Shown here: positions 19,940 through 61,539 of the stretch, piece by piece
Layout of the letters: each line of letters begins with the position of its first letter
Numbering within the stretch: position 1 is the first letter of the stretch
DNA from: Mucilaginibacter gilvus
GTDB lineage: Bacteria > Bacteroidota > Bacteroidia > Sphingobacteriales > Sphingobacteriaceae
Direction of reading: 5' to 3'
Assembly (NCBI RefSeq): GCF_004054195.1
Contig: NZ_SBIW01000001.1
Coordinates: 620,001 to 684,000 of the forward strand
DNA length: 64,000 nucleotides
Position numbers and translations under genes: made by a program
Notes under the pieces: model-generated
Databases searched by the model: none
What the model was told of the DNA's origin: nothing
Seen by the model: only the letters and a program-made list of their open reading frames with translations

Positions 19940-20057
19940 GTTACTTTTCTATTTTCATCATAGGCAGGGACTATTGCGTTTTTTAAGTGATTTATTATTA
20001 TAAATATATCATAATTAATAAATAAAAGCAATTTTTATGGTTTTAAAATCAATTTTT

Positions 20058-23997: not shown

Positions 23998-24286
23998 TGT
24001 GATATTTTTTAAATGTTAAAGCAATTTTTTAGAACCAAATACATCAAACTGCGACCTTAAATGCATTTACATCACAATTATAATTTAAAAAAACATCAAA
24101 AAGAAATAAAAAATCGTTTTTTTATTAAATAAATCATATAAATTATCTTTTTTATTCATAGTTTAGAACAATTAATATAATATAAATCATTTTTAGTTGT
24201 CTTTTAATTACATTTTCACATAAAAAAGTCCGCTAAATGATAACTAGATTGATAAAATTCATTTTTTGACGCTAATTTTTTACGAA
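23998..24286. promoter_or_regulatory. AT-rich divergent promoter region of nirB and cobA
   Basis: The 289-bp gap is very AT-rich and has no gene. It holds the leftward nirB promoter and the rightward cobA promoter. I find several ATCAT and TGAT half-sites (for example near 24135 and 24185) but no clean ATGAT-N4-ATCAT palindrome. The cobA start is ATG 24287. Confidence 0.4.
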
Positions 24287-25075: not shown

Positions 25076-25376
25076 AAGCGATGTGGCAACGCTTGCTACC
25101 AATGGCTTTATAGAAGAGACCACCCATTTTGGCACACAGGTGTTGAGGTATGCTTTGCGCCGTGGCATGGTCAGTTCTCTATCCGCCACTTTTGAGGATA
25201 ACACGATAACCATCCACATGCCCGACCAAATGATAGAGGAATGGGTGCATACCGACCGCATTGGCTTTGAAAACAGCAACAGCGCCATGTATTTATTAGT
25301 GGAGAAAGATTTTGTTTGCCTGGATAACGTAGCGGAGGACCAAAGCGATAACTACCCAAACCCGTTACTTTGCTGA
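25029..25376 (+). CDS. Small conserved protein of unknown function (DUF7009-like)
   Basis: This 115-residue protein overlaps the last 47 bp of cobA in another frame, so it is probably translationally coupled. The sequence begins MKIRIKGNSLRYRLTKSDV and has no signal or membrane segment. It is predicted to be a compact alpha/beta protein with few cysteines (C at 96 and 115). I recognise the N-terminus from small Bacteroidota proteins (a DUF7009-type family, not certain) but know no function. Coupling to cobA suggests a part in siroheme or nitrite metabolism; that is inference only. Confidence 0.7.
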   Translation: MKIRIKGNSLRYRLTKSDVATLATNGFIEETTHFGTQVLRYALRRGMVSSLSATFEDNTITIHMPDQMIEEWVHTDRIGFENSNSAMYLLVEKDFVCLDNVAEDQSDNYPNPLLC

Positions 25377-25402
25377 AAAGGTAATTGCCAGCGAGGTACT
25401 TG

Positions 25403-25426
25403 GCTACTATTTAGTAGCACCGGTTA
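25403..25426. terminator. Weak hairpin between convergent genes
   Basis: GCTACTA (25403-25409) and TAGTAGC (25412-25418) form a 7-bp stem in the 47-bp gap between the convergent small cobA-coupled gene and the ClC gene. A T-rich run (TTATTTTTG) follows on the plus side after six more bases. The stem is short and the loop tight, so strength is doubtful. Confidence 0.35.
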
Positions 25427-27295
25427 TTTTTGTTCGTTTTCTGCAGCTTTTTTAAACATGGATTTCCCTCGCAACAGCACTTTCATTCGCTGGCGCTTTA
25501 ACGATATATGGGTCACTGCCGTTTCGTTGTCCTCAAAGTTTTGTTTGTAAGTGGATATAACATCGCGATAGTTTAAAACACCAATCAATTTATGGTTCTT
25601 TACAACCGGCAGTAGCTCAACTTCCTGTTGTGCCATTAATTCTACGGCGTTTCGCAGGCTTTCATTTGATTTGATAGCGGCGATACCAATTTTGGCAATC
25701 CGCTCAACCGCAGAAAGGTCATTATTTTTCACATCGTATATATCTGCCAGTTCTACAACGCCCTTAAATTCCGCCCGCTCACTTACAACCGCAAAGCAAT
25801 TCTCTTTAGCCGGATTATTGGCTAAGCGATCCTTCACCTGCGCAATGCTCATGGCAGCATTTAATTTAATATTGTCTGCCCTCATTACCTGCCCCACGCT
25901 GATCTTTTGAAGCGCGTCCGGCTCATAAGAATCAGGTGTGACAACTCCCCGCCGCGCTATCTTTTCGGTCATGATGGTGTTCTCCATCAGGAAAAAGGAA
26001 ACAATATAAGATGCTGTACAAGCACCCAACAAAGGCAACAGCGCGTGCGACTGCATAGTAGCCTCTAACGCGAAGGTGATACTTGTTAAATAAGCCCGGG
26101 ACGCGCCCGCAAACATCGCCGACATGCCAATTAAAACCCCCATAGGTATGCTGATGCCGACGTTTGGAAATAGGCTTAATATAACCGAGCTGATAATGGC
26201 GCCCGCCGCCCCGCCGATAGTAAGCAATGGGGCAAGTGTACCACCGGATGTTCCACTACCCAGAGCGATAGCCCAGGACAAAAACTTAAACAGGCACAAA
26301 CTTAAAATTAAGGCTAAAGGCACTTTACCGGAAAGCAAACTGGTAATATTATCGTAGCCTACACCTAAAGTATGCGGGTAAAAATAACCGATAAGCCCTA
26401 CCACCAAACCGCCCATGGCCGGCCACCACATCCAGTGCACGGGTAATTTTTCAAAAAGGTCCTCAATCACATATACAGCCTTTGTGAGAAACAATGAAAG
26501 GAAGCCAATGAGTATCCCAATAAAACTGTAAACCGCCAATGCTAAATTGGACGGTGTTTCCAGATCGGGCATGGGGAATACGGGCCCTGCTTCAAACAAT
26601 AAATGATGCCCTGCTGCACCGGTAATGCACGCTAAAGCAACCGGCAGGATAGCCTTGGGAGAAAATTCAAACAACAAAAGTTCGATAGCTAAAAAAACCG
26701 CCGCAATGGGTGTACCAAATATTGCCGACATACCCGCTGTAGCCCCCGCCGCCAATATTACCTTGCGCTCGCTCGATGTAATTTTTAATAATTGCCCCAG
26801 CGTTGAACCAAGCGCGCCACCGGTGGCTATAATTGGCCCTTCCGCACCGAACGGCCCGCCGGTACCAATGGCAATGGCCGATGATATGGGCTTTAAAAAA
26901 GTAATAGAGGGTTTAATTTTACTTTGATTAACTAAAATTTGTTCCATGGCTTCGGGTATGCCATGGCCTCTTATTGCTTTAGAGCCGTACAAGGCCATTA
27001 GCCCAACCAAAATACCACCAACGGCCGGTATAGCTATTACCCATGCGCCAAGGTGGTTGCCTGCCGGGCTTTGAAAGCCTAAATTAAACGAGCCGTAAAA
27101 AGAGATATTAGTTACCAGGTTGATAAGCAGCACCAGGAATTTGGCTATAAAACTAATGGCGACAGCTACCAGCACGGCGTAAATAGAAATTCTTATAAGG
27201 CGGCTTTTTTTGAAGCTTACATATTTTACGTCTTCCTCAAGTGATTTTAAGATGGGAGAAATAGGAATACTATCGTTCTTTTTATTTTTTTGCAT
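25424..27295 (-). CDS. ClC-family anion channel/antiporter with CBS pair
   Basis: The 623-residue protein is a ClC anion transporter. Signature segments: GHGIPEAM (selectivity region, near residue 112; E. coli ClC has Ser in place of the His), GPFGAEGPI (gating Glu of the GxEGP motif, near 150) and GSGTSGGTLAPLL (near 350). About ten to twelve membrane helices precede a cytosolic pair of CBS domains (about 470-600), which usually bind nucleotides. It lies close to the nitrate genes, and some ClC proteins carry nitrate, but the substrate cannot be read here. ATG 27295 is preferred over TTG 27316. Confidence 0.93.
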   Translation of the reverse strand: MQKNKKNDSIPISPILKSLEEDVKYVSFKKSRLIRISIYAVLVAVAISFIAKFLVLLINLVTNISFYGSFNLGFQSPAGNHLGAWVIAIPAVGGILVGLMALYGSKAIRGHGIPEAMEQILVNQSKIKPSITFLKPISSAIAIGTGGPFGAEGPIIATGGALGSTLGQLLKITSSERKVILAAGATAGMSAIFGTPIAAVFLAIELLLFEFSPKAILPVALACITGAAGHHLLFEAGPVFPMPDLETPSNLALAVYSFIGILIGFLSLFLTKAVYVIEDLFEKLPVHWMWWPAMGGLVVGLIGYFYPHTLGVGYDNITSLLSGKVPLALILSLCLFKFLSWAIALGSGTSGGTLAPLLTIGGAAGAIISSVILSLFPNVGISIPMGVLIGMSAMFAGASRAYLTSITFALEATMQSHALLPLLGACTASYIVSFFLMENTIMTEKIARRGVVTPDSYEPDALQKISVGQVMRADNIKLNAAMSIAQVKDRLANNPAKENCFAVVSERAEFKGVVELADIYDVKNNDLSAVERIAKIGIAAIKSNESLRNAVELMAQQEVELLPVVKNHKLIGVLNYRDVISTYKQNFEDNETAVTHISLKRQRMKVLLRGKSMFKKAAENEQK

Positions 27296-27440
27296 CTTTA
27301 TATATTGTATTAACAATATTAATTAATTAATTTTATAACAAAAATAGCTATTTAGTGTTGCATAAACAATAAAAATAACACAACCAGGCTTACAACCAAT
27401 GGCCTGTACCTATTTTACAGCTTAACCATTGCCAATAAAT

Positions 27441-27884
27441 ATGAAAGCTATCCATTATGTTGAAGATTGGGGCAACCGGCATCACCCGGCCGCAATTGAT
27501 GTTTTGCGGATATTGCTGGGGGCATTTTTATTAGCTAAAGGGTACGCCTTCCTCCAAAACATGGCCTATTTAAAATGGATCCTTTCCAATCATGATTTAG
27601 CAGGCTTACCTTCAGAAACCATGTCTTTCCTGATGTTTTATGTGATCTTTGTGCACATGACGGGCGGGGCATTAATTATGCTGGGAATCTCCACCAGAGT
27701 TGCCTCCTTATTACAATTACCCATCATCGTTGCCGCCATATTTGTTATCAATAATTTTAAATCTCCGTTAAATACAGAGCTTTGGCTCTCGGTTTTAAGC
27801 GGTATATTATTATTGGTGTTTTTAGTGATCGGCTCCGGGCCATTTTCTCTTGATCATTATCTAACCGAATTAAAAGAGGACTGA
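27441..27884 (+). CDS. DoxX-family membrane protein
   Basis: The 147-residue protein has four predicted membrane helices and the DoxX-type layout: HPAAIDVLRILLGAFLLAKG near residue 12, then FVHMTGGALIMLG near 75 and a C-terminal helix ending in FSLDHYL. DoxX proteins are small inner-membrane proteins with unclear functions linked to redox stress or quinone oxidases. Its ATG at 27441 follows a TTG at 27429 that I reject. It is transcribed toward the second Crp/Fnr gene, 56 bp away, and may share its promoter. Confidence 0.8.
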   Translation: MKAIHYVEDWGNRHHPAAIDVLRILLGAFLLAKGYAFLQNMAYLKWILSNHDLAGLPSETMSFLMFYVIFVHMTGGALIMLGISTRVASLLQLPIIVAAIFVINNFKSPLNTELWLSVLSGILLLVFLVIGSGPFSLDHYLTELKED

Positions 27885-27940
27885 GGCTGATGCAAACATC
27901 GCAGGCCTGCGCCACAGTTATTTTTTGCAACTTCGTATAA

Positions 27941-28639
27941 ATGAAAGAAACAAAAAACGGGTGCGATCTAACCAACTGCTACCTGTGTACGCATTGTATT
28001 AACGATTGGAAACCCGCTATAACTGCTCATAAAACCAATTTTACGGTGAAAAAAGGGCAGCGGATCTTTAATGAAGGCGATGCGGTTACGGGGATATACT
28101 TTATTTTTTCGGGAAAAGTAAAGGTGCATAAAAGATGGGACGACGAAAAAGAGATCATCATTCGTTTTGCGCAGGCCGGCGACATTTTGGGGCATTTAGG
28201 GTTAGGGAACGACTCAACCTACCCGGTATCAACAACGGCCATCGAGCCAACCATTGTTTGCTACATCGATCTGCCTTTTTTTGAATCGTCCCTGCAGGTT
28301 AACACCAGGCTCACCTATTCGCTGATGAAGTTATTTGCGAATGAGCTGCAGGAATCAGAAAAAAGGATGCGGAACCTGGTACACATGCCGGTAAAAAAAA
28401 GAATAGCATTGGCCTTACTTACCTTACAAAAGCAATTTGGTGTAACCGCAACCGGTACAATAAATATTGAATTAACGAAGCAGGATATGTCTTCCTTCGC
28501 TGCCGTATCTTATGAAACCCTTTTTAAGGTGACTAACGATTTTATCCAAAATAATTGGATCGCCTCAAACGGAAAGTCGATAAAGATAATTAACGAAGCT
28601 TTATTAACGGCGATAACGCTGGACCTTAAAAACGATTAA
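27941..28639 (+). CDS. Second Crp/Fnr-family regulator with the same four-cysteine N-terminus
   Basis: A 232-residue paralogue of the regulator at 20285, with the same domain order and the same cysteine frame: C8, C13, C16, C19 (CX4CX2CX2C) and a central C107 in IVCYID. The HTH segment (ELTKQDMSSFAAVSYETLFKV) differs from the first protein in the recognition helix (ETLFKV against ETVFRV), so the two may bind different sites. It follows a DoxX gene, so oxygen, NO or redox sensing is a fair guess. The region 28640-28691 after it holds only a small GCCC-TCC-GGGC hairpin. Confidence 0.85.
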   Translation: MKETKNGCDLTNCYLCTHCINDWKPAITAHKTNFTVKKGQRIFNEGDAVTGIYFIFSGKVKVHKRWDDEKEIIIRFAQAGDILGHLGLGNDSTYPVSTTAIEPTIVCYIDLPFFESSLQVNTRLTYSLMKLFANELQESEKRMRNLVHMPVKKRIALALLTLQKQFGVTATGTINIELTKQDMSSFAAVSYETLFKVTNDFIQNNWIASNGKSIKIINEALLTAITLDLKND

Positions 28640-28691
28640 CCCCGGCCATCACGACGCCCTCCGGGCGAGCTCCCATTGCAGATATCACACA

Positions 28692-29338
28692 TTAGCTATT
28701 CGTTGCTAATTTTGCGCGTTTACCCGATCTGATATGAGCGAAATCTTCCTTTTGGGTGAAATATTCAAGGCCTAAAATTAATAATGTTGAACTTATAAAA
28801 TTCACCTTTTGCGTAACGGGCAGCAAACTCCAATTACTTGTACCCCATAGGTATACACTGTAATAAAAAAACAAAAGGCAAACTATACAAACGAATTTAA
28901 ATAAGTGAAGCCTTGTCTTCAGGATAAAAACCGTGATAACAATTAAACACGTCCAAAACAACTGGTTGATATGATCAACATAATGTCGTGCAAAGAGGTG
29001 ACAGTTAAAAACGTAAAAAAGATGTTAACTATCCCTCCGTATTTTAAAATATAGGCTGCATTTCTTTCAGGTATCTTTTTCGACATATTAACGAAAAATA
29101 TGGCATAAGTAATTGGGAGGAAAATCATTCCCGCGTATGCCCAAATCCTGGAGGGGTTTTCAGTACCGTTCAGCGCTTTTGTTCCAAACAGGTTGCTCAT
29201 GAAATTTTTTGACCAGTCAAATCCAACAGAATATTCATTGAACATTGTCCCGCCCGGATAAACGTAAATGGCTATCAATATTAAAATTACCGAAATTGCT
29301 ATCCCTGTTAAAACTGAATATTTCTTAAGTATTTGCAT
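28692..29338 (-). pseudogene. Frameshifted integral membrane protein (DUF998-like)
   Basis: Two overlapping minus-strand frames together make one membrane protein of about 215 residues. The upstream frame starts at ATG 29338 and has three hydrophobic helices with the motif YPGGTMFNEYSVGFDWSKNF, then runs out at 28943 with a short unrelated tail. The other frame continues with FNCHLFARHYVDHINQLFW and three more helices to the stop at 28692. Both frames read naturally if one base is gained or lost near 29020, in a run of six T. This looks like a frameshifted gene or a sequencing slip. The family name is a guess from the YPGG and layout. Confidence 0.6.
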
Positions 29339-29495
29339 AAAGCATCGGTTTATAAAACTGGCAATTAGAGTAAACCGCACCTCTATTGTTACGAATTGCG
29401 TTTTATTTCAAAATAAAAAAACGCTAAGCTAAATCAGGTATCAGCCCTCGCAACCCAACTCCTTTTCGTTCGCCAAAAAATATTTTCAAAAAATC

Positions 29496-29541
29496 TTGCG
29501 CAGTTGATTGACTGCATATATATTTGCAGTCAATCAACTGC
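29496..29541 (+). promoter_or_regulatory. ArsR operator (17-bp perfect inverted repeat) around a TATATTTG promoter
   Basis: GCAGTTGATTGACTGCA (29500-29516) and its exact inverse TGCAGTCAATCAACTGC (29525-29541) flank an 8-bp spacer. The Bacteroidota -7 motif TATATTTG (29519-29526) lies across the spacer, with a TTG at 29496-29498, 20 bp upstream. RNA polymerase and the repressor would compete for the same DNA, which fits autorepression by the ArsR protein that starts at 29550. Confidence 0.85.
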
Positions 29542-29549
29542 AAGTAATT

Positions 29550-29855
29550 ATGAGACGAGATATTTTCCAAGCCATTGCCGACCCTACCCGCAGAGCCATT
29601 TTGACTTTGCTGGCATTAGGCGCCATGACACCTAATGCTGTAGCAGAGCACTTTGATAGTACCCGGCAAACGATATCTAAACATATCCAGATCCTGACTG
29701 AGTGTGAGGTACTGATACAGAAAAAGAACGGCAGAGAAATTTATTACCACTTTAACCCCGAGAAAATGAAGGAAATAGATATTTGGCTGGAACGTTTCCG
29801 CAAGATGTGGGAGGACAGCTTTAACCAATTAGATGACCTATTAAAAGACTTATAA
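29550..29855 (+). CDS. ArsR-family winged-helix repressor, SRPBCC-linked type
   Basis: The 101-residue protein has the ArsR helix-turn-helix ([18 protein letters not shown], then [24 protein letters not shown] near residues 30-55) and the wing [14 protein letters not shown]. There are no metal-binding cysteine clusters, which is typical of the ArsR type that is coupled to SRPBCC (AHSA1) genes and responds to small organic ligands or to none known. The ATG at 29550 follows the operator by 8 bp. The gene is first of four co-oriented genes: ArsR, two SRPBCC and a reductase-like protein. Confidence 0.92.
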
Positions 29856-29865
29856 ACCAAAAAAC

Positions 29866-30360
29866 ATGACAAACAATTTTGTGTTCGAAACAGACATGGC
29901 TGCCAAGACGATTCATATAGCACGCGAATTTAACGCGCCGGTTGAAAAAGTTTGGAGGGCCTGGACAGAGGCTGACCTGCTTGAAAAGTGGATAGCGCCA
30001 AAACCGTGGACGGCCAAAACCAAAATTATGGATTTTACCGTTGGTGGAATATGGCTTTACGCTATGGTTGGTACCGAGGGCCAGAAACATTGGGTGTACG
30101 CCAAATTTACCGCGATAGAAAATGGCAGTGCCTTTTCATCAACGGGTATGTTTTGTGATGGAGAGGGAAACCCGGTTGTTGATGGGCCAAAATCTTACCG
30201 GGATACTAAATTCACAACTGTTGACGGTAACAGAACCAGGGTAGATTCGGTGATCACCTTCGAAGAAGAATCAACCATAAAAATGTTCGCTCAAGGTGGC
30301 TTTAAAGAAGGCACCACAATGACCTTTAGCCAACTGGACGAGTTTTTGACCATAAAATAA
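29866..30360 (+). CDS. SRPBCC (AHSA1-type) ligand-binding protein
   Basis: The 164-residue protein belongs to the START/AHSA1 fold, a helix-grip barrel with a hydrophobic cavity. Visible family features are the first strand TIHIAREFNAPVEKVWRAWTEADLLEKW (near residue 14) and the WLYAMVG turn near 62. It begins 10 bp after the ArsR stop and is the first of a tandem pair. The ligand is unknown; in related operons such proteins often act with ArsR as effectors. Confidence 0.9.
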   Translation: MTNNFVFETDMAAKTIHIAREFNAPVEKVWRAWTEADLLEKWIAPKPWTAKTKIMDFTVGGIWLYAMVGTEGQKHWVYAKFTAIENGSAFSSTGMFCDGEGNPVVDGPKSYRDTKFTTVDGNRTRVDSVITFEEESTIKMFAQGGFKEGTTMTFSQLDEFLTIK

Positions 30361-45776: not shown

Positions 45777-45862
45777 TTCCAGATTAAACGTAACACTCGA
45801 GTTACATTCTGAAAATAAAAATGGGTAATATTATCTACTTAATTAACAGCAAAATATTCGGC

Positions 45863-45927
45863 AAAAAAGAAGGGCAAGCGACCGTTTTACCGTGCTTGCC
45901 CATTGTGGCTCCCCAGGCTGGGCTCGA
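45863..45927. repeat. Direct repeat B: terminator hairpin plus tRNA-like tail, left border of decayed island
   Basis: 65 bp matching 48641-48705 at 57 of 65 positions with no gaps. It contains the hairpin GGGCAAGC ... GCTTGCCC (45872-45901) and then, on the minus strand, CTGGGGAGCCA, an acceptor-like tRNA end (45916-45906). The two copies bracket about 2.7 kb of broken genes. I read them as the two attachment sites of an old island. The rest of 45777-46227 holds this repeat and the terminator at 46002. Confidence 0.65.
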
Positions 45928-46001
45928 CCGTCTAAAAACTTTCAGCGATACGCTTTAAATTTTCCATCAAATGGTTCGAAAAAAGTCCAATAGGGATCAC
46001 A

Positions 46002-47829: not shown

Positions 47830-48119
47830 AAATCAAATTTTTTAATGTGCGCAAAGCAAATACTAAAAGCTTGAAACCAAATTAATTAAGTAGAAATGCA
47901 TGCTTATTGGAAGTTTGTGCTATATCTTACATGTTTATCAGAGTTTCAGCACAAATCAGAAGGATGCAGTTTTTTAGTGTCCCCCGCAGGTGTCAGTTAC
48001 AGCAAACAAGATTATGGCTACCTGTTTGTACTAACTATGTACTATCAAAGTACTATCTGAGGCTTGAATTAAACAAAAAAAGCCTCTACACTTGGAGCAC
48101 CTGATAAAGCCGCGTATGC

Positions 48120-48680
48120 AGATATAAGGCTGAAGAGGTAAACAAAGTATTTAATGAGGTGATAGAGGAGTTTACCATCGAAGAGAATTATGCAGAACTA
48201 TTTACAGAAGTTATCGCTGATACTTACAAAGCCAAAACACTACGCAATTGATCTCCCGCTCGGAACTGCTTAAAGAGATCAACGACCTGAACAGCCGCAT
48301 TGCCAAAGCAAGGGAGTTACTTTTGAACGGCGACATAGACGGCGCGGATTACAAAACCATTAAGTCTGAAAATGAATATAAGATAAACGTACTGGAAGCG
48401 AAGTTGGCAGAGGCGGCAGCAGTGAACTCTAAGGCTGAAAACATAGAACCGATACTTAGGAGAGCAATTACCAAATTGACACAGTTGAACACAATCTATT
48501 CAAAATCAAATACTTCTGCAAAGCGTGAATTAATTGGTTCGATGTACCCCCAAAAATTCACTTTCGAGGAATTGCAACATCGAACCGCTTTACAAGTAAA
48601 TTATTCTTGTATCTACTTGATAAACAGAAAAATAGCGGGTAAAAAAGAAGGGCAAGCGACCGATTTTTCGTGCTTGCCCA
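48120..48680 (+). pseudogene. C-terminal remnant of a large serine recombinase, frameshifted
   Basis: A frame without a start reads YKAEEVNKVFNEVIEEFTIEENYAELFTEVIADTYKAKTLRN from about 48121 and hits TGA at 48249-48251. A shifted frame carries on with SRSELLKEINDLNSRIAKARELLLNGDIDGADYKTIKSE and a coiled coil, then RELIGSMYPQKFTFEE. This is the coiled-coil C-terminal domain of Bacteroidota resolvase/integrase proteins. The catalytic N-terminus is gone. The open frame runs on into the tRNA-like tail to 48721, giving the false ending GLEPGTL. It belongs to the decayed island that ends here. Confidence 0.7.
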
Positions 48681-48705
48681 TTCTGGCTCCTGAGCCTGGA
48701 CTCGA
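48641..48705. repeat. Direct repeat C: terminator hairpin plus tRNA-Asn tail
   Basis: Second copy of the 65-bp repeat at 45863. GGGCAAGC ... GCTTGCCC (48650-48679) is the hairpin; the rest is the end of the tRNA-Asn fragment. This copy is the better preserved one, with a proper T-arm and acceptor strand. Confidence 0.7.
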
Positions 48706-48730
48706 ACCAGGGACCCTCTGATTAACAGTC
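48684..48730 (-). other. 3' fragment of tRNA-Asn(GTT), attachment site of the right-hand island
   Basis: On the minus strand 48730-48684 reads GACTGTTAATCAGAGGGTC then CCTGGTTCGAGTCCAGG and CTCAGGAGCCA. The anticodon loop CTGTTAA holds anticodon GTT (Asn), the T-arm pairs CCTGG with CCAGG, and the acceptor 3' strand CTCAGGA ends with CCA. The 5' half (acceptor, D-arm) is absent; AT-rich DNA stands there. This is the usual outcome when an island inserts in a tRNA 3' end: a fragment on one side, the full gene on the other. The intact tRNA-Asn should lie beyond the right edge. Confidence 0.85.
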
Positions 48731-48842
48731 ATATTTTACACATTATTGGTATTTTGTAATTCATTGTTATGTATTGATAATCAACAATTTATGAATATTT
48801 CATTATTGGGTAATTTGTGATATTTTGCGATTTGTTGTCCAT

Positions 48843-50865: not shown

Positions 50866-52434
50866 ATGCCATTACACGTCAATATTGAAGATTTATTAAA
50901 CGCTCGTTCTGTTGAATCGGAACGGCTCGAATTTAAAGAGGGGTGGAATCCTGATGCTATATACCGTTCAATTTGTGCTTTTGCGAATGATTTTGAAAAT
51001 GTGGGTGGTGGCTATATTCTGATTGGCGTGGAAGAAGAAAGCGGGATTGCCAAGCGGCCCGTTGTAGGTTTAAGTGCCTCCAAGATTGCCTCTATTCAAA
51101 AAGAGATGATCGGGTATAATAACCTGATTAACCCCGTTTACCATCCTAAACTCTTTATTGAAACTGTGGATGGCCAGCAAATTTTAGTTATTTGGGTGCC
51201 CGGTGGCTCTAACCGCCCTTATGAAGTGCCTGAACAAATTACGGCCAAACAAAAACGATATTCTTATTATGTTCGTAGGTATGCCAGTTCTGCTGTTGCA
51301 GATATGGAAACTCAGCAAGAACTGATTAGTCTGGCCAACCAAATTCCTTTTGATGACCGCTCTAATCAATATGCCAGCATAGATGATATTTCAATGGTAC
51401 TCATTCAGGATCATTTGCGCCTGATAGGCAGTAAATTGATGGAAACTTCCGATCAGCATACCAAAACGGTAATATTAGAACAGATGCTCCTGGTTGATGG
51501 CCCGCCCGAACACCGCTTTCCCCGGAATGTGGCATTGATGATGTTTAATGAACACCCGGAAAAATTCTTTCCTGCCACCTGGGTGGATGTCGTGTATTTT
51601 CCAAGGGGTGAAGGAGAATCGGAATTTCTTGAATACCCGCGTATTACAGGCCCCGTACCTACTTTAATCAGAAAGACACTGGACTTATTAAAAACAAACT
51701 TTTTAAAGGAAAAAGTCATTAAGCAAGCTGACAAGGCCGAAGCAATCCGTATTTGGAATTACCCTTACGCTGCACTGGAAGAAGCTGTGGCGAATGCATT
51801 ATTTCATCGTGATTATCAACTGAGGGAGCAGGTTGAAATCCGGGTTTCACCGGAATCCATCGTGCTGCTTAATTATGGTGGCCCTGATCGCTCTATCCGT
51901 CAAGAAGATTTTATCAGCGGCAGGATAAGGCCGCGCCGTTACCGCAACCGCCGTTTAGGAGATTTTTTAAAGGAACTCGATTTAACGGAAGGCCGTGCTA
52001 CAGGTATTCCCACTATTAAACGTGTTTTGGAACGTAATGGCTCTCCTGAACCATCTTTTCGCACAGATGATGAACGTACCTTTTTCGAAGTAGAAATATT
52101 TTGTCATCCTGCTTTTAAAAACGATGTTATTCTTATAGATGATGCCCAAAAGGAAGTGGCAAGTAATAAGGAAGGTAATAGAGATGGTAATAGGGATGGT
52201 AATAGAGATGGTATTTTGTTATCCCCGAAACAAAAGGAAATATTAAACTTTTGTCAAAACCCCCAAAGCCGGGCAGATATATTCGATCACCTCGGCATTT
52301 CGAACCAGCCCAAAAATTACCGCCTGCATATTTTACCACTAATACAAGCTGGTTATATCACTCTTACCGAACCTGATAAACTTTCCAGTAAATATCAAAA
52401 GTATCAAACCAGCAATACGGCCCCCGCTACCTGA
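50866..52434 (+). CDS. AlbA_2 (Schlafen-like) / RecG-C-terminal-type ATP-binding protein
   Basis: The 522-residue protein has an AlbA_2 domain at the N-terminus (RLEFKEGWNPDAIYRSICAFANDFENVGGGYILIGVEE, residues 20-57) and a GHKL-type ATPase segment in the middle (YPYAALEEAVANALFHRDY near 302, a Bergerat-like N-box). A winged-helix end (PKQKEILNFCQNPQSRADIFDHLGIS near 455) follows. Between them a short repeat GNRDGNRDGNRDG (residues 443-455 region) is encoded by three 12-bp units. Such proteins are common on mobile elements and are linked with transcription control or defence. Function not known. Confidence 0.85.
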   Translation: MPLHVNIEDLLNARSVESERLEFKEGWNPDAIYRSICAFANDFENVGGGYILIGVEEESGIAKRPVVGLSASKIASIQKEMIGYNNLINPVYHPKLFIETVDGQQILVIWVPGGSNRPYEVPEQITAKQKRYSYYVRRYASSAVADMETQQELISLANQIPFDDRSNQYASIDDISMVLIQDHLRLIGSKLMETSDQHTKTVILEQMLLVDGPPEHRFPRNVALMMFNEHPEKFFPATWVDVVYFPRGEGESEFLEYPRITGPVPTLIRKTLDLLKTNFLKEKVIKQADKAEAIRIWNYPYAALEEAVANALFHRDYQLREQVEIRVSPESIVLLNYGGPDRSIRQEDFISGRIRPRRYRNRRLGDFLKELDLTEGRATGIPTIKRVLERNGSPEPSFRTDDERTFFEVEIFCHPAFKNDVILIDDAQKEVASNKEGNRDGNRDGNRDGILLSPKQKEILNFCQNPQSRADIFDHLGISNQPKNYRLHILPLIQAGYITLTEPDKLSSKYQKYQTSNTAPAT

Positions 52435-52496: not shown

Positions 52497-53255
52497 CTAA
52501 AGTTCAATACACTTATCGGTATGGTAGAGCGAATGCTCGTTACGCTGAACGTAGCCAAGCTGATTGGTCAGCAATTTTGTATGACCTATTTTAAACTCAG
52601 GAATATTTTGATGGTGATGCCCGTAAATCCAATAATCCGGCGTGGTATCTAAAATCAAATCATCCAATATCGTTGCAAAAGCCTCGTTCAGGTAGTCTCC
52701 TTTATATTCTGGAGGATAGTTTTTAAAAGTAGGAACATGATGTGTGATCACTACTTTTTTGCCAGTTGTATCTGCTTCTAAAGAGGAACGTAGAAACGTA
52801 AGGCTGTTTGCATGAAAATCATTATAGTCAGGAATTTGAAAGCGCTTCCCATCATAACTAATTTGATAAAAATCATTCAGGCTACGTTCTATCCGCCAGC
52901 CATTTAACAAGCTGATGGACGACCACAATGTCGAAAATAGCAACTGATGCGCGCCAATTTCTTTAACCACATTATTTATTAGTGACACATTACTTTTAAT
53001 CTTTTCTTCAAATGACCCCGATCTGTTTGAAATATCACTTTGATAGTATTCGTGATTCCCTGGTATCCAATAGGTTGCTTCAAAGTGATCGCTGATATAA
53101 TCAAAAAAGTCCTTTTGTCTGTCTATCCTGGTAAACAAAGTAATATCGCCAGCCAATATCAAAATGTCGCCTATGGGCTTAATGGGGTTAGCTTTTATAT
53201 AGGCTTCATTTTGGGGGAACTCTAAATGAAGATCGGAGCAGTACTGTAAAATCAT
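52497..53255 (-). CDS. Metallophosphoesterase
   Basis: The 252-residue protein has the calcineurin-like metal motifs: SDLHLEF (D and H, residue 7), LAGDI (near 34), PGNHEYY (near 65), THHVPTF (near 173) and YGHHHQN (near 213). It is a stand-alone cytosolic phosphatase or phosphodiesterase without signal peptide. It is convergent with the AlbA_2 gene, 62 bp apart. Substrate unknown; such enzymes appear both as housekeeping and as mobile cargo. Confidence 0.9.
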   Translation of the reverse strand: MILQYCSDLHLEFPQNEAYIKANPIKPIGDILILAGDITLFTRIDRQKDFFDYISDHFEATYWIPGNHEYYQSDISNRSGSFEEKIKSNVSLINNVVKEIGAHQLLFSTLWSSISLLNGWRIERSLNDFYQISYDGKRFQIPDYNDFHANSLTFLRSSLEADTTGKKVVITHHVPTFKNYPPEYKGDYLNEAFATILDDLILDTTPDYWIYGHHHQNIPEFKIGHTKLLTNQLGYVQRNEHSLYHTDKCIEL

Positions 53256-53772: not shown

Positions 53773-55323
53773 ATGGCCAACTTAACAATCAGCATGAGTA
53801 AGATTAGAAAGATACTAAAGATGTACAGCCAGCAGCGGGCGATAATGACCATAGCTGCCCAAGCCGATGCATCGAGAAACACCGTAAAGAAGTACATAGC
53901 AGCTTTTAATGACAGCGGCTTTACCTTTGAAGAGGTTAACGCACTGAACGACAAAGAGCTGGAAGATTTGTTCGGTAAAAGCAGGGAACACCCGCCTAAC
54001 GCACGTATGCAGTCCATGCTGCGCTGCTTTCCCCACGTCGATAAAGAACTCAAACGAACTGGCGTTAACCGGCAGATGCTATGGGAAGCCTACTATAAAG
54101 AGTTTCCTGACGGCTACCAATACAGCCAGTTTTGTTTTTATTATAACCAATGGAAGGCCAGAGTAAACCCGACCATGCACATGGATCACAAGGTCGGTGA
54201 CAAGCTGTACGTTGACTTTGCCGGTGAAAAGATGAGCTATACGGACAAGGAAACCGGGGAGATCATACCTGTAGAGGTTTTTGTAGCTATTCTGGGTGCC
54301 AGTCAGTTAACCTATGTAGAGGCTGTTATGAGCCAGCAAAAGGAAGACTTTATAGCGGCCTGCGAGAATACCCTGCACTTTATCGGCGGCGTTCCCGCCG
54401 CCATTGTACCGGATAACCTGAAAGCTGCAGTAACCAAAAGCAGCCGCTATGAACCTACCCTGAACGAAACGTTTGAAGACTTCGCCGACCATTACGGTAC
54501 AACCATTCTACCAGCGCGGGCGTACCGCCCGCGCGATAAGGCATTGGTAGAAGGTGCCGTTAAGATCATTTATACCAAGATCTACGCCCCTTTAAACAAA
54601 CATGTCTACCATTCTTTAACAGAACTCAATACAGCGATCTGGCAGGCCCTGGAAGTCCATAACAGCCAATTGCTTAAAGGTCGCAACTACAGCAGAAAGC
54701 TACAGTTTGAAGAGATAGAGCGCCAAACTCTGGCACCACTGCCTGTTCTGCGCTACCAGTTCAAAAAGCAATTCCAGGCCAGGGTGATCAAGAACGGCCA
54801 CGTTAACCTCGGCCCGGACAAGCACTATTACAGCGTTCCTTACCGCTATATCGGCAAACGGGTCAAGCTGTTATACTCGCGCACCATTGTAGAGATCTAC
54901 TCCAACTATGAGCGTATCGCATTGCACCCTCGCAATAAAAACCCTTATGGCTATACCACTGACAAAGAGCATATGGCCAGTACCCACCGCTTTAAAAGTG
55001 ACTGGACACCAGATATGTTTTTGGATTGGGCAGCCTCCATTCATGAGGATGTCAGGCTGTATATCCTTCAGATACTGGAACGTAAACAACACCCGGAACA
55101 GGCTTACAAGTCCTGCCTGGGGGTACTTGGCTTTGCTAAAAAAGCAGGGAATGAACGGTTAACAGTGGCTTGCCAGCGGGCATTGAGTTACGGCGTCTAT
55201 AACTATAAAACGATACAAACCATACTGGAAAACAAGATGGATAACTATGAGGAAAGCTTATTTGCCGATGAGTTGCCTATGCCTGATCATGGTAATATCC
55301 GGGGAGAAGACTATTACAAATAA
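53773..55323 (+). CDS. istA: IS21 transposase
   Basis: The 516-residue protein has an N-terminal HTH (MSKIRKILKMYSQQRAIMTIAAQADASRNTVKKYI) and the rve integrase core. The DDE residues are in KLYVDFAGEK (near residue 143), VPDNLKAAV (near 214) and DKALVEGAVK (Glu, near 255). The C-terminal Mu-type domain (VPYRYIGKRVKLLYSRTIVEIY) follows. Two starts are possible, ATG 53773 and ATG 53794; the second begins directly at the HTH. Translation is followed by istB 20 bp later. Confidence 0.95.
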   Translation: MANLTISMSKIRKILKMYSQQRAIMTIAAQADASRNTVKKYIAAFNDSGFTFEEVNALNDKELEDLFGKSREHPPNARMQSMLRCFPHVDKELKRTGVNRQMLWEAYYKEFPDGYQYSQFCFYYNQWKARVNPTMHMDHKVGDKLYVDFAGEKMSYTDKETGEIIPVEVFVAILGASQLTYVEAVMSQQKEDFIAACENTLHFIGGVPAAIVPDNLKAAVTKSSRYEPTLNETFEDFADHYGTTILPARAYRPRDKALVEGAVKIIYTKIYAPLNKHVYHSLTELNTAIWQALEVHNSQLLKGRNYSRKLQFEEIERQTLAPLPVLRYQFKKQFQARVIKNGHVNLGPDKHYYSVPYRYIGKRVKLLYSRTIVEIYSNYERIALHPRNKNPYGYTTDKEHMASTHRFKSDWTPDMFLDWAASIHEDVRLYILQILERKQHPEQAYKSCLGVLGFAKKAGNERLTVACQRALSYGVYNYKTIQTILENKMDNYEESLFADELPMPDHGNIRGEDYYK

Positions 55324-55343
55324 CCATTTAAAACAACAATAAC

Positions 55344-56090
55344 ATGAACACAAGCACCTTAGACAAACTGCGGAAGATGAAGTTCTTCGGCATGTTCCAT
55401 GCCTTTAAAAGCAGCATGGAAACCGGTAAAACAAATGAGTATACAGCGGATGAACTACTGGCCCACCTGGTGGAAGCTGAATGGGATGACCGGCAAAACA
55501 GGCGTATTGAACGCACCATCCTTTATGCCAAGTTCCGCTATAAAGCTGCTATAGAGGACGTTCATTACCATGCTGACAGAAGTATCGACCGCAACCAAAT
55601 CATGCGCCTGGCGGACTGTACGTTTATTGACCGCTTCGAGAACCTGCTGATCACCGGAAGCACCGGTATCGGTAAAAGCTATGTGGCTTCTGCTATAGGC
55701 TACCAGGCCTGCATATTGGGCTACCGTGTATTATACACCAGTACGCCCAAGCTATTCGCTAAACTGAAGATGGCAAAGGCAGACGGCTCCTATATCAAGG
55801 AGATCGCCAAGCTTGAACGGCAGCAACTGCTGATACTGGATGACTTCGGCATCCAACCTTTTGACGCACAAAGCAGGGCCGCCCTGATGGAGATCATTGA
55901 GGACCGGCATGGAAAGACCTCGCTGATCATTACCTCACAACTGCCGGTTAGTAAATGGTTTGAAGTAATTGGTGAAAAAACGATTGCTGATGCTATCCTT
56001 GATCGGATCGTTCATGATGCACACCGTATAGAACTGAAGGGGGAATCTATGAGAAGAAAACGTAGTGTTGAACCGGAAAACAACCACTAA
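55344..56090 (+). CDS. istB: IS21 helper ATPase
   Basis: The 248-residue AAA+ ATPase helps IstA select the target. Walker A is GSTGIGKSYVA (near residue 105), Walker B LLILDDFG (near 165), sensor region ITSQLPVSKWFEVIGE near 197. Intact length. It ends 125 bp before the right end of the IS. Confidence 0.96.
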   Translation: MNTSTLDKLRKMKFFGMFHAFKSSMETGKTNEYTADELLAHLVEAEWDDRQNRRIERTILYAKFRYKAAIEDVHYHADRSIDRNQIMRLADCTFIDRFENLLITGSTGIGKSYVASAIGYQACILGYRVLYTSTPKLFAKLKMAKADGSYIKEIAKLERQQLLILDDFGIQPFDAQSRAALMEIIEDRHGKTSLIITSQLPVSKWFEVIGEKTIADAILDRIVHDAHRIELKGESMRRKRSVEPENNH

Positions 56091-56329: not shown

Positions 56330-57889
56330 TTATGGCTTTTTCTTAATTATGTCGCGTAGCCTATCGGTTACTATTTGTTTTGCTATCAATTTTTTTTCTA
56401 AATCTTCTGCCTTCTTTTTTAAATCATCAATAGTTATTTTATTTAAGTCTTTAATATTAATATTTTTCAGTTTCTCGATAGCCACAATAGTATTGGTAAG
56501 TTCCTTCTCAAACTCAGGCTTTTCTAAATCATAATGGCTAAAAGGGTTCATTACAGTACTACGATGTGTTTCAATCTCCTTTACCAGTGCGGGATCTAAA
56601 TCAGTCTGCTTTGTAATGGCTTCCCAAAAGTCCTCTGTTTTGAAATCCTTTTGTCTAATTTTATAGCTAACCTGTAGCACTTTCTTCTCACATATATTCA
56701 TCACAATACGTTCAAATTCTGTACGAATATAAACGGCTGATGCTTTATTATCCTTTTCTAATAGATAATATTTGGCCTTCTCAATATAACCGAGCGTGTT
56801 TTTAATAATAGGGAACTCGAAATCTTCATCTATTAATTTTTTAGAATAAATTTCAATGTAGTTCCATTTTTCACTTCCAAAGTAATTGCTAACTAAATCG
56901 AACCATACTTTATCATAAGTGGTCATTACTATTTGAAACTGTTCACTTTGCTTTATATCAATAAAATGATTTTTTAAAATAGAAAGGAGTGGCAACCTAT
57001 TACTCATGTCTAAACCTATCAATAAGTCATCAAGGACTAAAATTTTAAGTGCTCCTGTTAAAGGATTTACCTTGATTGATGCCAAGTAGACACTAATTGC
57101 AAGTGCTGATAACCTTGCTTCATTTAAAAAAAATTGGTGTTTTGGTATATGTTTTTTTACGAATTCAATCTCTAAATCGATATTGTTGCCTATGATCCCT
57201 CTTCTCCCTGTGTACTCAACTTTATCAAAATTTAACTTGATAATAATATTATTCCCGAAATAAGACATAAATGTATTTACATCCTTCTCTATATCCGCAA
57301 GAAGTATTTTAAGACCGGGGTTGAATTTATTTTTTAAATAATCTCTTATTGCGTTTTGCTGCTTTTTGGTTTGTTTCTTATTATAAATGTCATTGTAAAT
57401 ATTATCCCATTCTCGCCCAATTTCCTCGGTAGAAAAACGATTAATCGAGTGGTACAAAATTTCTTTAACTAAGATTTTAAATAAATTGACGTTTGAATCG
57501 TGATCAATGTGAGTTTTCAACAAACTCCTATAATCGAAAAAACCTTTTACTTTATTTGCATTAGCTATAAGCGACTTATCGCCGCTAATAATTTCCTTAT
57601 TAACGGTGTCAACTTCAAATTCCTGCGTTACGGTCGCGTCTGCATTTTCCCTGATTTTTATGCGTATGCTTGCTGTGTTTTTCTGAGAGACTGGAATAAA
57701 AATATTCTCTTCTACTTCGACTTTTCCTATTGATGCTTTAAAGAAACTTTGCAATGCTGTAAACAAAGAACTTTTACCACTGCCGTTTTCTCCATATACC
57801 ATTAGATTCTTTCCACCCTTATCTAAAGTTATATGGTATTCACCATAGAATGCACGGTAATTTTTAATGTATATGTCCGTGATTCTCAT
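56330..57889 (-). CDS. RecF/SMC-like AAA ATPase of the helicase-methylase operon
   Basis: The 519-residue protein has an SMC/RecF-type N-terminus (ITDIYIKNYRAFYGEYHI), Walker A GENGSGKSS (residues 33-41), a helical insertion (about 90-260) and Walker B ILVLDDLLIGLD (near 286, followed by a D-loop). No TOPRIM nuclease domain (as in OLD proteins) follows; the C-terminus is a coiled coil ending about 515 with many Lys. The ATG overlaps the methylase stop by 4 bp (ATGA), so it is made together with that protein. I infer a sensor or effector role in a defence system; it may instead load or regulate the methylase. Family not further recognised. Confidence 0.75.
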   Translation of the reverse strand: MRITDIYIKNYRAFYGEYHITLDKGGKNLMVYGENGSGKSSLFTALQSFFKASIGKVEVEENIFIPVSQKNTASIRIKIRENADATVTQEFEVDTVNKEIISGDKSLIANANKVKGFFDYRSLLKTHIDHDSNVNLFKILVKEILYHSINRFSTEEIGREWDNIYNDIYNKKQTKKQQNAIRDYLKNKFNPGLKILLADIEKDVNTFMSYFGNNIIIKLNFDKVEYTGRRGIIGNNIDLEIEFVKKHIPKHQFFLNEARLSALAISVYLASIKVNPLTGALKILVLDDLLIGLDMSNRLPLLSILKNHFIDIKQSEQFQIVMTTYDKVWFDLVSNYFGSEKWNYIEIYSKKLIDEDFEFPIIKNTLGYIEKAKYYLLEKDNKASAVYIRTEFERIVMNICEKKVLQVSYKIRQKDFKTEDFWEAITKQTDLDPALVKEIETHRSTVMNPFSHYDLEKPEFEKELTNTIVAIEKLKNINIKDLNKITIDDLKKKAEDLEKKLIAKQIVTDRLRDIIKKKP

Positions 57890-60800
57890 TGTTTACCCTC
57901 AATTATAGCAATTTCTAGTATAGAGCTCATATAAAATAAATTTACACGCACGGGATGTTCCTTATCATTCATTCTATCAAATACGCTAACGATGCGATTT
58001 AATTTTTCCTCATCATCAAGATTATTTAGTGATGGCAACGTTCCAATATTTTTTATTATTTCACGTCTGTTTTTGGCAATTAATTCCGGAAAGTATAGCT
58101 CGTAGACAATGCCGTTTATGACTTGTTCAAAGTAAACTGGCATAAGTTGTTCATTTACACTTAGCAGCGCCTGTGATTTTAAGAAAATTATAGATTGAAC
58201 AAAAAAAGATAGTTCCTCAACGTTCGATATTTTGCAAATTGGTATTTCAGATAAGGGTGTATAATATAACTCTAACGTTTCACCCTTTCTTTTTCCTCTA
58301 TTATATAGCCAAAAATATACAAGCTTACTATTGAGTATAGCCACAAGGGCTTCTATAGTTAAATTAGATATGTTATTTTCTAAAAGTGATATGTAAAACA
58401 CATCTCTGCTCGAATACACTGGATCTTTAGCGAGTGCAAACGTATTTGAGTTTGATCGATAAGGAGCTATTATTTTGGCTGAACTTTCAAAAATTTTAGC
58501 TTCGCGAGGTCGATGAAGTGAATACCAGGGCCAATTTGGCTCATCGTATCTTAAAATCTGGTCATCTAATATTGGTTTATAGGGTTTTAAATATTGAATT
58601 AGGTTAGGGATTTTACTCTCCGGAATATTCCACCCTATATATAAAAGAAAATCTTCTGAAAATGAGTGGTCATACTTATGAATATTGGAGTTTTTAATAT
58701 AAGGCTTGACAAGTCGTAATTCATAGTCAGTTAATTGCGACTTCAAAATGTCAATTTCTTTTTTACTAAGCACAAACACACCTTTACCTTTGACGTAATT
58801 ATTTGTTGGGAATTGCTCAATGTGTTTATCAGTAATTCTACTTATAGTAATGTCACAACCGGAATTTATGGAAGCCAGTTTTTCTAAAGTGTCTGAATTT
58901 GATGATATTTGTTTAAAGATGCCTTCGTAATTGTCGGGGCCTATATGACCAATTCGTAAATAAAGTTTGGGCCCGTCAAACAACTGATCTAACTCAAAAT
59001 CAGCATAATTGGATTTACTATCGGTTCCGTTAAGTATATTCCTTAATATTTCCGCGCCGGTCTCATTTTTACGATTAACATTGGTGATTCTTGTCGGATT
59101 TTTTGATACCTGTTTTTTTAAAAAAGTAATCATATTATGCTGCCCCAATGCAGAATCGAAAACTTTAAATTCATTGAAATTTATAACACTTAAAACTGTT
59201 GTATCATTTTTAATTTGCTCCCTAAGTTTAAATGCTCCATCTGCTGTTGGAAAATAATTTGTCGTTATGAAATTGGTAGTTCCGCCTGCTTTGCATAATT
59301 TAATAGCTAAATGAAAGAAAAAATAAAATAAGTCCATTTTAGCTAGGTAAAAGTCTTTCATAAATCCCAGCTTTATTTGGTGAAACTTTTCTTTATTCCC
59401 TTTTTCACCAACATATGGCGGGTTACCGATCACGATGTCAAAGCCCACATGTTGGGTAATCTTCTCATTGAGGACTTCCGGAAAATTTAACTTCCAATCA
59501 AAAAAATCTAAGGGTTCTTCTCCAGTGAAATTAGACAATATCTTTATTGAATTGCTTAGGTTATTCTCAACTATTAGGTTATCAAGATTCTTTTTTAAGT
59601 CTTTTGCGGTCGGTGCGAATCCGCCCAATTTTGGATTACTCTGCTCAAATGAAATCTTTGTGAGATTTAATTGATTTAGAAGAACAGTTGCCTTTAATTT
59701 TTCAATATCTTTTTTTAGTTGATTTTTTTGTCCACTTGCCTTAAAATAATTGGCTTGCTTGGTCTCTAATAATTTAAGTTTGGATTGTTGATCTGCAATA
59801 ATTTTTTCTACCGCCGAAACATTCTTGCTCTTAATATTCCAATCTATATCAATTACTTCATCATTGAACTTGCTAACTAAGCTATTTCCAACGACAATCT
59901 TATAATCTAAATTTGGGAGCGCTTTAGGTTTTGGTTCATCTACAATTAAACTTAGCCAAAAACGCAATCTCGCAATATCTACGGCTCCCTTCTCAATGTC
60001 CACGCCATATATACTATTTTGGATAATATCACCTTTAACATCCGCCGGGTTCCATTTTTTTTGAGTTTCGTAAGCTATAAGCTCCTTTATTGCAAATATT
60101 TCCTGTAATAAGCCCATAGGAAAGGCACCGCTGCCTATTGCTGGATCACAAATTTTAACTACATCCAATAATTTATCAATGTTTTGTATTTGTTGGTTTG
60201 AACAAGCATGGACATTTTTATTTTTTACGATTGCTGATATTTTAGCAAGATCCAACGGTTCGTAGTTTAAGGTCGATTTAGTGCTGAGATGTGTTGAAAG
60301 ATATTCAATTATGCTTTCTTGACACATATAATGAACTATTTCCTTTGGCGTATAAAAAGCGCCGGTGTCTTTGTTATATTCCAGCAGGTTTTCAAAAATG
60401 TGCCCAAGCATTTCTGGATCAACTGCAACAGTGTGGTCGTCTGGGCTATCTTCAAATACAGTAAAGTTAAATGAATTTAGAAAGTCAAGAAAGCCCCGGT
60501 GCTTAGGATCATCTTCATTGTCAGGATTATGAAACAATAGGGGTTTGAAAGTAAGTGTATAGTTATCATGGGCCTCTTTATCAAATAAGCCTCCGTTTAA
60601 GAATGGAATTTTAACAAATGTGCCATCCGGCATTTCAAAATCATCGTTTTTCCTTTTTCTATTTTGGGTTTCATTTTGGTTGAGAGTTTCGAAAAATAAA
60701 ACAGACAGCCAATTAGGATAAAACGTTTCATCCCCCCCGCTTTTAGCAAATAATGAAAAAATAAAATTTTTGTCTCCATCATAGTATTCTTTACTGCTTG

Positions 60801-61539
60801 CACCCAGCCAGCCTTTTTTTTGTACAAAGTATAGGAATACAATACGCCCTAATAATTTCTTTGTAAAATCTCTTACCGCTTTATCGTCATTTTTAAAATA
60901 TGATTTTATAAAGTTTGTTTCTTTACTTAAGTAATTAATAAAATTTGAATAGTGTAGAGTATATTCATCAAAAAAAGCCTTGCTTAGTTTTTCGACAGAA
61001 AAAGCCTTAATTAATGCTCCAAATTCGATGCTTCTTTCTGTACTTAAAATTTCAAATCGCTCAGCTGCCGTCTTACATGTTTCGTTGGGCCCCAGTAAAT
61101 AGGTGTATCTTTTGGAATTAGTAGTTTTTTCTTTAATTCCCGAATCAGTTAACACGCTATCTTTTGCGATAAGAGTTAATCGCCAAACATCCTTATTAAT
61201 GGGGGCAATAAAATTAACTAAAGCCGCTTGTCCTGCGGTAAGTAATTTTCGTACATATTGTTGTATGGCTACTTTACTATGTTCTAAACGGACGGTCGGC
61301 TGTAATACAATTTCATAGCAGATAATTTCAGTATTATCATCCAGTCTGATGTTGCCAAAAATTGAAACTTTATCAATAACAATAGATTCAGCCTGGTTAA
61401 GTATTGTAGGTGCAATAATTTCATTTGCATACAATGAAAACCCATTGCCAAACACCGGACTTAATATTTCCTTTGCGAACAGCAGCCTATCATATGGTTT
61501 ATGTAAGGCGTTTTGTAATTGTAAGCGGTTTGCTGGCAT
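57886..61539 (-). CDS. Eco57I-class DNA methyltransferase, probable restriction-modification enzyme
   Basis: The 1217-residue protein has an N-terminal region (1-200) with the pattern seen before Eco57I-type methylases (EIICYEIVLQPTVRLEHSKVAIQQYVRKLL near 70-100, FSVEKLSKAFFDEYTLHYSNFINYL near 178). The methylase core has motif I CDPAIGSGAFPMG (near residue 464) and motif IV VIGNPPYVG (near 707), an N6-adenine type. The C-terminal third (about 850-1150) looks like a TaqI-type recognition domain. A clear PD-(D/E)XK nuclease is not seen in the N-terminal stretch; the D...E of DDNTEIICYE lacks the usual K. The start is 1 bp after the helicase stop. Could be type IIG restriction or a methylase-only component. 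Confidence 0.85.
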   Translation of the reverse strand: MPANRLQLQNALHKPYDRLLFAKEILSPVFGNGFSLYANEIIAPTILNQAESIVIDKVSIFGNIRLDDNTEIICYEIVLQPTVRLEHSKVAIQQYVRKLLTAGQAALVNFIAPINKDVWRLTLIAKDSVLTDSGIKEKTTNSKRYTYLLGPNETCKTAAERFEILSTERSIEFGALIKAFSVEKLSKAFFDEYTLHYSNFINYLSKETNFIKSYFKNDDKAVRDFTKKLLGRIVFLYFVQKKGWLGASSKEYYDGDKNFIFSLFAKSGGDETFYPNWLSVLFFETLNQNETQNRKRKNDDFEMPDGTFVKIPFLNGGLFDKEAHDNYTLTFKPLLFHNPDNEDDPKHRGFLDFLNSFNFTVFEDSPDDHTVAVDPEMLGHIFENLLEYNKDTGAFYTPKEIVHYMCQESIIEYLSTHLSTKSTLNYEPLDLAKISAIVKNKNVHACSNQQIQNIDKLLDVVKICDPAIGSGAFPMGLLQEIFAIKELIAYETQKKWNPADVKGDIIQNSIYGVDIEKGAVDIARLRFWLSLIVDEPKPKALPNLDYKIVVGNSLVSKFNDEVIDIDWNIKSKNVSAVEKIIADQQSKLKLLETKQANYFKASGQKNQLKKDIEKLKATVLLNQLNLTKISFEQSNPKLGGFAPTAKDLKKNLDNLIVENNLSNSIKILSNFTGEEPLDFFDWKLNFPEVLNEKITQHVGFDIVIGNPPYVGEKGNKEKFHQIKLGFMKDFYLAKMDLFYFFFHLAIKLCKAGGTTNFITTNYFPTADGAFKLREQIKNDTTVLSVINFNEFKVFDSALGQHNMITFLKKQVSKNPTRITNVNRKNETGAEILRNILNGTDSKSNYADFELDQLFDGPKLYLRIGHIGPDNYEGIFKQISSNSDTLEKLASINSGCDITISRITDKHIEQFPTNNYVKGKGVFVLSKKEIDILKSQLTDYELRLVKPYIKNSNIHKYDHSFSEDFLLYIGWNIPESKIPNLIQYLKPYKPILDDQILRYDEPNWPWYSLHRPREAKIFESSAKIIAPYRSNSNTFALAKDPVYSSRDVFYISLLENNISNLTIEALVAILNSKLVYFWLYNRGKRKGETLELYYTPLSEIPICKISNVEELSFFVQSIIFLKSQALLSVNEQLMPVYFEQVINGIVYELYFPELIAKNRREIIKNIGTLPSLNNLDDEEKLNRIVSVFDRMNDKEHPVRVNLFYMSSILEIAIIEGKQ

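Follow-up and report, generated by a model that had tools for sequence, protein, structure and literature searches.

Integrative mobilizable elements that use a tyrosine integrase to enter the 3′ ends of tRNA genes, and their accretion in tandem, are outlined in a review (PMC5704250). CTnDOT-like genomic islands carrying metal resistance and mating-pore genes have been described in Mucilaginibacter (PMC6316836), and ssrA islands of Dehalococcoides encode a serine recombinase called DsiB, whose predicted insertion point is the T-loop of tmRNA (PMC3146451). Here we describe a tRNA gene fragment in Mucilaginibacter gilvus that lies between remnants of a serine recombinase and a tyrosine integrase. 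The DNA analysed (the window) is a stretch of 64,000 nucleotides, C20:620001-684000 of a 5.42-Mb draft genome in 31 contigs. Our main reading, to which we give a probability of roughly 0.9, is that the 46-nt fragment is an attachment scar at the left end of a tyrosine-integrase element specific for tRNA-Asn, called T1, within a stack of elements at a repeatedly used gene.

Table 1. Features of the window and of the linked tRNA-Asn locus. Positions are those of the window unless a contig is named.
Feature	Position	Strand	Basis or remark
Chromosomal backbone	806..30344	.	Collinear with the left tRNA-Asn flank of sister genome G041, some gaps
Older serine-recombinase right-end remnant, 37 aa, 65%, with degenerate tRNA T-arm/acceptor piece	45818..45928	(+)	tblastn with C24 copy
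Serine recombinase remnant, residues 317-518 in two frames, 1-316 absent	48117..48721	(+)	tblastn with intact C24 copy, 82.5% and 91.5%
Hairpin GGGCAAGC...GCTTGCCC, then T-rich run on minus strand	48650..48679	(-)	By eye
tRNA-Asn(GTT) 3′ part, 46 nt	48686..48731	(-)	Exact match to C24:50730-50804; T1 left-end attachment scar
Tyrosine integrase of T1, 423 aa	48990..50261	(+)	Pfam Phage_integrase / Phage_int_SAM_5
Schlafen/AlbA_2 + RecG-like C-terminal domain protein (T1 cargo)	50866..52434	(+)	Pfam
Metallophosphoesterase (T1 cargo)	52497..53255	(-)	Pfam
IS21-type transposase pair inside T1	53773..56090	(+)	Pfam IstB_IS21, Mu-transpos_C_2
SMC/RecF-like AAA ATPase (T1 cargo)	56330..57889	(-)	Pfam; weak PADLOC matches
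Eco57I-type methyltransferase, type IIG-like (T1 cargo)	57886..61539	(-)	Pfam; PADLOC REase_MTase_IIG 1.5e-77
SNF2/PLD helicase (T1 cargo), 1121 aa	61541..64000, on to C20:684906	(-)	PADLOC C3a139 HKD+Snf2 6.2e-39
Element T2, 41 kb	C24:9640-50730		Second scar to full tRNA-Asn
Full tRNA-Asn(GTT)	C24:50730-50804	(-)	Sequence match, on other contig than scar

The fragment is an exact copy of the 3′ part of the full tRNA-Asn(GTT) gene and contains the anticodon arm, variable loop, T-arm, acceptor 3′ strand and discriminator. Tolerating one mismatch, BLAST aligns 48 of 49 nt (C20:668686-668734). The first-pass annotation had placed a 47-nt tRNA-Asn(GTT) end at 48684-48730; the piece is real and its extent is now corrected. 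The T-arm, acceptor 3′ strand and anticodon loop that it listed are present, but the CCA it assigned to the tRNA is not part of it: in this genome, the full gene encodes no CCA, its ...GGAG being followed directly by CTTG. The CCA at 48684-48686, which overlaps the 46-nt block by one base, belongs to the right end of the serine-recombinase remnant on the left. The 5′ half is absent, as had been noted: ARAGORN reports no complete tRNA in the window, the Rfam tRNA model gives the piece 19.2 bits (cut-off 29 bits), and no acceptor 5′ strand was found in the 270 nt to the right of the scar. A 34-base pattern taken from the scar, with up to 3 mismatches allowed, occurs at 3 sites in the 5.4-Mb genome, all exact and all on the minus strand (the window scar, C24:9603-9636 and C24:50739-50772), compared with 0 sites for the reversed pattern used as a control; the piece is thus not a chance match. 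A single full tRNA-Asn was found in this genome, by sequence searches rather than by an ARAGORN scan of all 31 contigs.

A catalytic-domain tyrosine integrase, recognized by its Pfam matches, stands beside this exact 46-nt direct repeat at one T1 end. Its ATG lies 258 bp to the right of the block, close to the 260 bp first estimated. A single scan of the named genomes with the T1 integrase yielded 18 loci, 17 of which have a tRNA 3′ piece upstream of the integrase, at a distance of 171-260 bp (15 Asn and 2 Lys, the latter with anticodon CTT). The sole exception is a partial integrase match with no tRNA piece (L050), and one tRNA-Asn scar (L048) has one changed anticodon base. The integrases at the two tRNA-Lys(CTT) loci (L040 and L041) are about 50% identical to that of the window; near the loop, a single anticodon base separates their target from tRNA-Asn(GTT). 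The shortest shared tRNA block (L037) starts at the 5′ edge of the anticodon loop. Furthermore, when the window element is aligned to relatives in M. flavus (L033), two metagenome-assembled genomes (MAGs; L034 and L035) and M. pineti (L036 and L038), similarity starts at 48686 each time; at L048 and in G027, where a serine recombinase precedes the scar, it reaches further left than the scar. These loci bear out the original identification of an attachment scar, which is one of the ordinary, textbook kind. The description of the element as young also fits, as the integrase protein has 100% amino acid identity in M. flavus (L033) and one MAG (L034), and the window is 95.2% identical to M. flavus over 5.0 kb.

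The same loci bear on the idea that the piece had no role in T1 integration, being instead a pseudogene, a tRNA-like sequence that arose by chance or a passenger of a serine element. The piece does supply the last codons of the serine recombinase remnant as well, and tRNA 3′ ends are present at the right ends of serine recombinases. However, a strong upstream serine recombinase was found at just one of the 17 scar loci (L048), with a weak match at L042 (61 aa, 3e-4), and at the other 15 the piece occupies the same place with no serine recombinase at 1e-3 in the upstream DNA examined. Because between-strain homology also starts exactly at the piece, we regard a fragment with no role as exceedingly improbable, and attachment by T1 as the origin of the scar.

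The element runs rightward, and a full tRNA-Asn on the minus strand does lie on that side, both as predicted, although the gene is on another contig. Contig C20 (694822 nt) ends 26.1 kb to the right of the scar, and the C24 gene is placed by comparison with the sister genome G041. There, C2 32301-73854 is collinear with C20:610295-650344 (main blocks 79-88%), and 92257-111999 is collinear with C24:50730-71803; a minus-strand tRNA-Asn (92258-92332) lies between the C20-like and C24-like blocks. Because G041 holds both blocks on one contig, we infer that the right end of C20 and the left end of C24 flank one tRNA-Asn locus, in the order C20, gap, C24. The distance from scar to full gene is at least 76.8 kb (26.1 + 50.7), plus the gap, so the limit of about 100 kb within which the gene had been expected is neither exceeded for certain nor strictly kept to. 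For T1, it is this synteny with G041 that would place the full gene at the far end, T1 itself being interrupted by contig ends and by two further elements, S1 and T2.

The left flank was compared in 12 genomes, and G041 is the only one with long collinearity to C20. A genome whose flanking kinase is 99% identical (G047) has no collinearity with the C20 left flank in 80 kb, G048 shares a 1.4-kb block only and G144 a 70% block only, and eight others (G042, G055, G007, G039, G058, G064, G122 and G012) offer no useful collinear left flank. The pfkB-type kinase that flanks the full gene was detected in 139 of the 149 genomes of the genus; in our C24, G041, G027 and G121, 88-549 bp separate it from tRNA-Asn. 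The end of C20 (694706-694822) and the start of C24 (1-117) carry similar IS-like terminal repeats in opposite orientation, which are a likely cause of the assembly break. A direct join of the contigs through these IS-like ends was not used because no matching target duplication was seen by eye.

On its left side, the scar had been taken for the border of the foreign DNA, which it is not. Collinearity with G041 already ends at 30344, and the stretches 45818-45928 and 48117-48721 are remnants of serine-recombinase elements. The scar marks where T1, one member of a tandem array, begins on the left, and not where the variable region does. GC content is 0.369 from 48.7 to 64 kb and 0.452 from 7.8 to 30.4 kb. 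To the left of the scars, positions 30344-45800 form a variable stretch that is not shared with G041, ending in a 701-aa open reading frame with no Pfam match at 1e-5.

A second scar, identical to the first, lies at C24:9594-9639. It is followed by an integrase that is 91% identical to that of T1 (C24:9897-11168) and then by 41 kb leading to the full gene, such that scar, integrase and full tRNA-Asn of T2 are all on C24. Because this scar has its own integrase, the element of the window ends to the left of it and not at the full gene, and the proposal of one island extending to that gene is not supported. A single island could be kept if the scar at 9.6 kb of C24 were an internal duplication, and the full tRNA-Asn does lie on the right side in the predicted orientation. 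Nevertheless, the second scar comes with its own relaxase as well as its own integrase, and similarity between T1 and T2 is mostly limited to the integrase end, where 2.2 kb that take in a portion of the serine recombinase match at 85%, and to a block of 1.5 kb on the mobilization side (76%). We consider a single island very improbable and treat T1 and T2 as two elements because of the integrase and relaxase that accompany the second scar.

Comparable arrangements occur in relatives. On G098:C26, a full tRNA-Asn (94501-94576) and a scar (122115-122158) with a 49% identical integrase are 27 kb apart. One contig of G027 carries, over 160 kb, a serine recombinase, a scar, a T-type integrase, a second scar 43 kb on, which has no T-family integrase beside it, and a full tRNA-Asn 158 kb on. 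In G040, the unit of serine recombinase and scar is inverted relative to the full gene. Two full tRNA-Asn genes lie 13.6 kb apart in G121 (C1:4426834-4440504), each with a serine recombinase or its remnant at the 3′ side.

Our model for the array is as follows. The tyrosine integrase would recombine the anticodon-loop region of tRNA-Asn with the copy on the element circle. With the new 3′ part brought by the element, the gene would remain complete on the right of the insertion, and the former 3′ part, now displaced, would persist on the left, at 258 bp from the integrase. Repeated use of the same gene may have added first a serine element that has since decayed (S0), then T1, then a second serine element (S1) and finally the 41-kb T2, at whose far right end the full tRNA-Asn would now stand; this order of insertion is read from the arrangement of the parts. 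The T-stem is CCTGG/CCAGG in the tRNA-Asn of this genome and in both scars, compared with GCTGG/CCAGC in G041; such a paired difference in the stem suggests that an incoming element has replaced the 3′ part of the gene with its own. T1 is putatively still able to excise. At the left end of S1 (C24:746), a search of C24:1-8000 with up to 3 mismatches in 16 found no tRNA piece.

Beyond the window, T1 continues to the end of C20 with a HEPN protein, a PD-Lambda-2_B-like protein, a relaxase, and MobC/NikA-like and helix-turn-helix proteins. The relaxase (PF03432) and NikA/MobC genes lie at the contig end, where the T1 sequence is incomplete. Because it carries a MobA-type relaxase, T1 is probably an integrative mobilizable element, with cargo of restriction/helicase type. 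An RteC label for a gene at the C20 end was dropped, as Pfam and NCBIfam gave no match. T2 carries a relaxase followed by ATP synthase subunits, phosphoketolase, acetate kinase, PPK2, a P-type ATPase and a CheB/CheR histidine kinase, that is, an energy-metabolism package at tRNA-Asn. The scar is therefore useful as a landmark: one tRNA-Asn gathers restriction/helicase-type (T1) and energy-metabolism (T2) cargo in separate, stackable units.

A large serine recombinase (Pfam Resolvase and Recombinase) adjoins the tRNA sequence to the left of both scars, intact on C24 (518 aa, C24:8073-9629) and decayed in the window. An open reading frame within the window remnant (48248-48721) has its last codons antisense in the tRNA piece (...LAPEPGLEPGTL), and the C24 copy likewise ends antisense to the tRNA piece at its own scar. 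The hairpin just before that piece would make a terminator-like site for the tRNA strand, inside the reading frame of the serine recombinase, and similar hairpins occur at other junctions of serine recombinase and tRNA. Matches to this recombinase were found in 115 of the 149 genomes of the genus. With all loci recounted by one rule, 52 of 70 have an intact tRNA where the recombinase gene ends, on the other strand: 23 of the 30 best (L051-L080) and 29 of 40 further ones (L154-L193), which were hand-picked down the ranking before their flanks were seen, some ranks being skipped. The same rule applied to random points in 67 stretches of relatives gave 13 hits in 20000. By ARAGORN label, the adjoining tRNAs are those for ten amino acids (Asn, His, Arg, Lys, Met, Leu, Phe, Val, Pro and Glu). 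In the first set, the loci with no intact tRNA are L051, L052 and L053 (tRNA-Asn scar next to the recombinase), together with L055, L064, L068 and L072. The second set has 11 misses, among them L187, which is cut by a contig end, and L189-L191 (38-39% identity), which have no hairpin/tRNA junction by eye.

Left scars were sought for nine serine elements in nine genomes, and a convincing one was found in G090 only. In that genome, a 17-bp repeat, with no further copy in 16 kb, flanks an element of 6019 bp. On the right, the repeat belongs to an intact tRNA-Met; on the left, it comes after a terminator-like hairpin, presumably that of tRNA-Met itself, and breaks off in the T-loop. The G090 element, the one with both ends resolved, thus appears from its sequence to have cut the T-loop. 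Two candidate left scars were not accepted, one in G036 with 13 matching nt, at 30 kb, and one in G050 with 16 of 18, at 29 kb; G121, G011, G048, G022, G026 and G013 gave no left-scar match longer than 14 nt. By eye, truncated tRNAs follow the right ends of serine recombinases at L064, L155, L175, L182 and C28:427782-427933; they are Met pieces cut in or just after the T-loop, and a Phe-like piece at L182. Perhaps these are scars of further element families.

We slightly favour a joint reading in which serine-recombinase elements of Mucilaginibacter target the T-arm of almost any tRNA and leapfrog with the tyrosine family into mixed arrays. The recombinase gene would end within the antisense strand of the tRNA, its last codons and stop varying with the host tRNA, and the hairpin inside its reading frame would substitute for the terminator of the tRNA itself. 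The serine family would cut the T-loop and the tyrosine family the anticodon loop, and we propose that, because both rebuild the tRNA after insertion, each regenerates the target of the other.

A simpler arrangement would be one element, whose circle holds a serine recombinase, an attachment site and a tyrosine integrase in that order. This order is indeed seen on our own C20 and C24, in G027 and at L048, and G040 has a serine recombinase followed by a scar. Even so, a serine element on contig C22 has its own MobC/relaxase and no T1-type integrase, the serine relatives adjoin intact tRNAs of ten amino acids, and no serine recombinase (at 1e-3, in the upstream DNA examined) accompanies 15 of the 17 tyrosine-integrase loci with a scar. 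One composite element is accordingly improbable, and two families sharing the tRNA-Asn gene is the reading that we retain. If T-loop targeting holds, the serine family would form a natural collection of recombinases, unusual in the many kinds of tRNA that it targets. The scar itself is ordinary; the serine-recombinase family at many tRNAs is mildly novel, and the mixed array, above all through this tRNA-wide family, raises the interest of the locus a little.

A literature search, mostly of titles, returned no description of a serine-recombinase family that targets tRNAs in Bacteroidota; this is weak evidence that none has been described. The CTnDOT-like islands (PMC6316836) resemble T1 in being mobile islands of the same genus with tyrosine recombinases; they carry metal resistance and mating-pore genes, and the word tRNA is absent from the main text of that paper. 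As outlined in the review (PMC5704250), tyrosine-integrase elements share with the present locus an integrase beside the repeat of the target gene end, the full gene at the other end and stacking with decayed elements, whereas here tyrosine and serine elements are mixed at one tRNA-Asn of Mucilaginibacter. For the serine family, the DsiB islands (PMC3146451), compared by description, appear to be the nearest published parallel found. They likewise have a serine recombinase at a tRNA-like gene, a predicted insertion in the T-loop, tandem islands and 20-bp repeats. DsiB has one described target, tmRNA, whereas recombinases of the Mucilaginibacter family adjoin tRNAs for ten different amino acids, and the 3′ codons of their genes overlap the tRNA.
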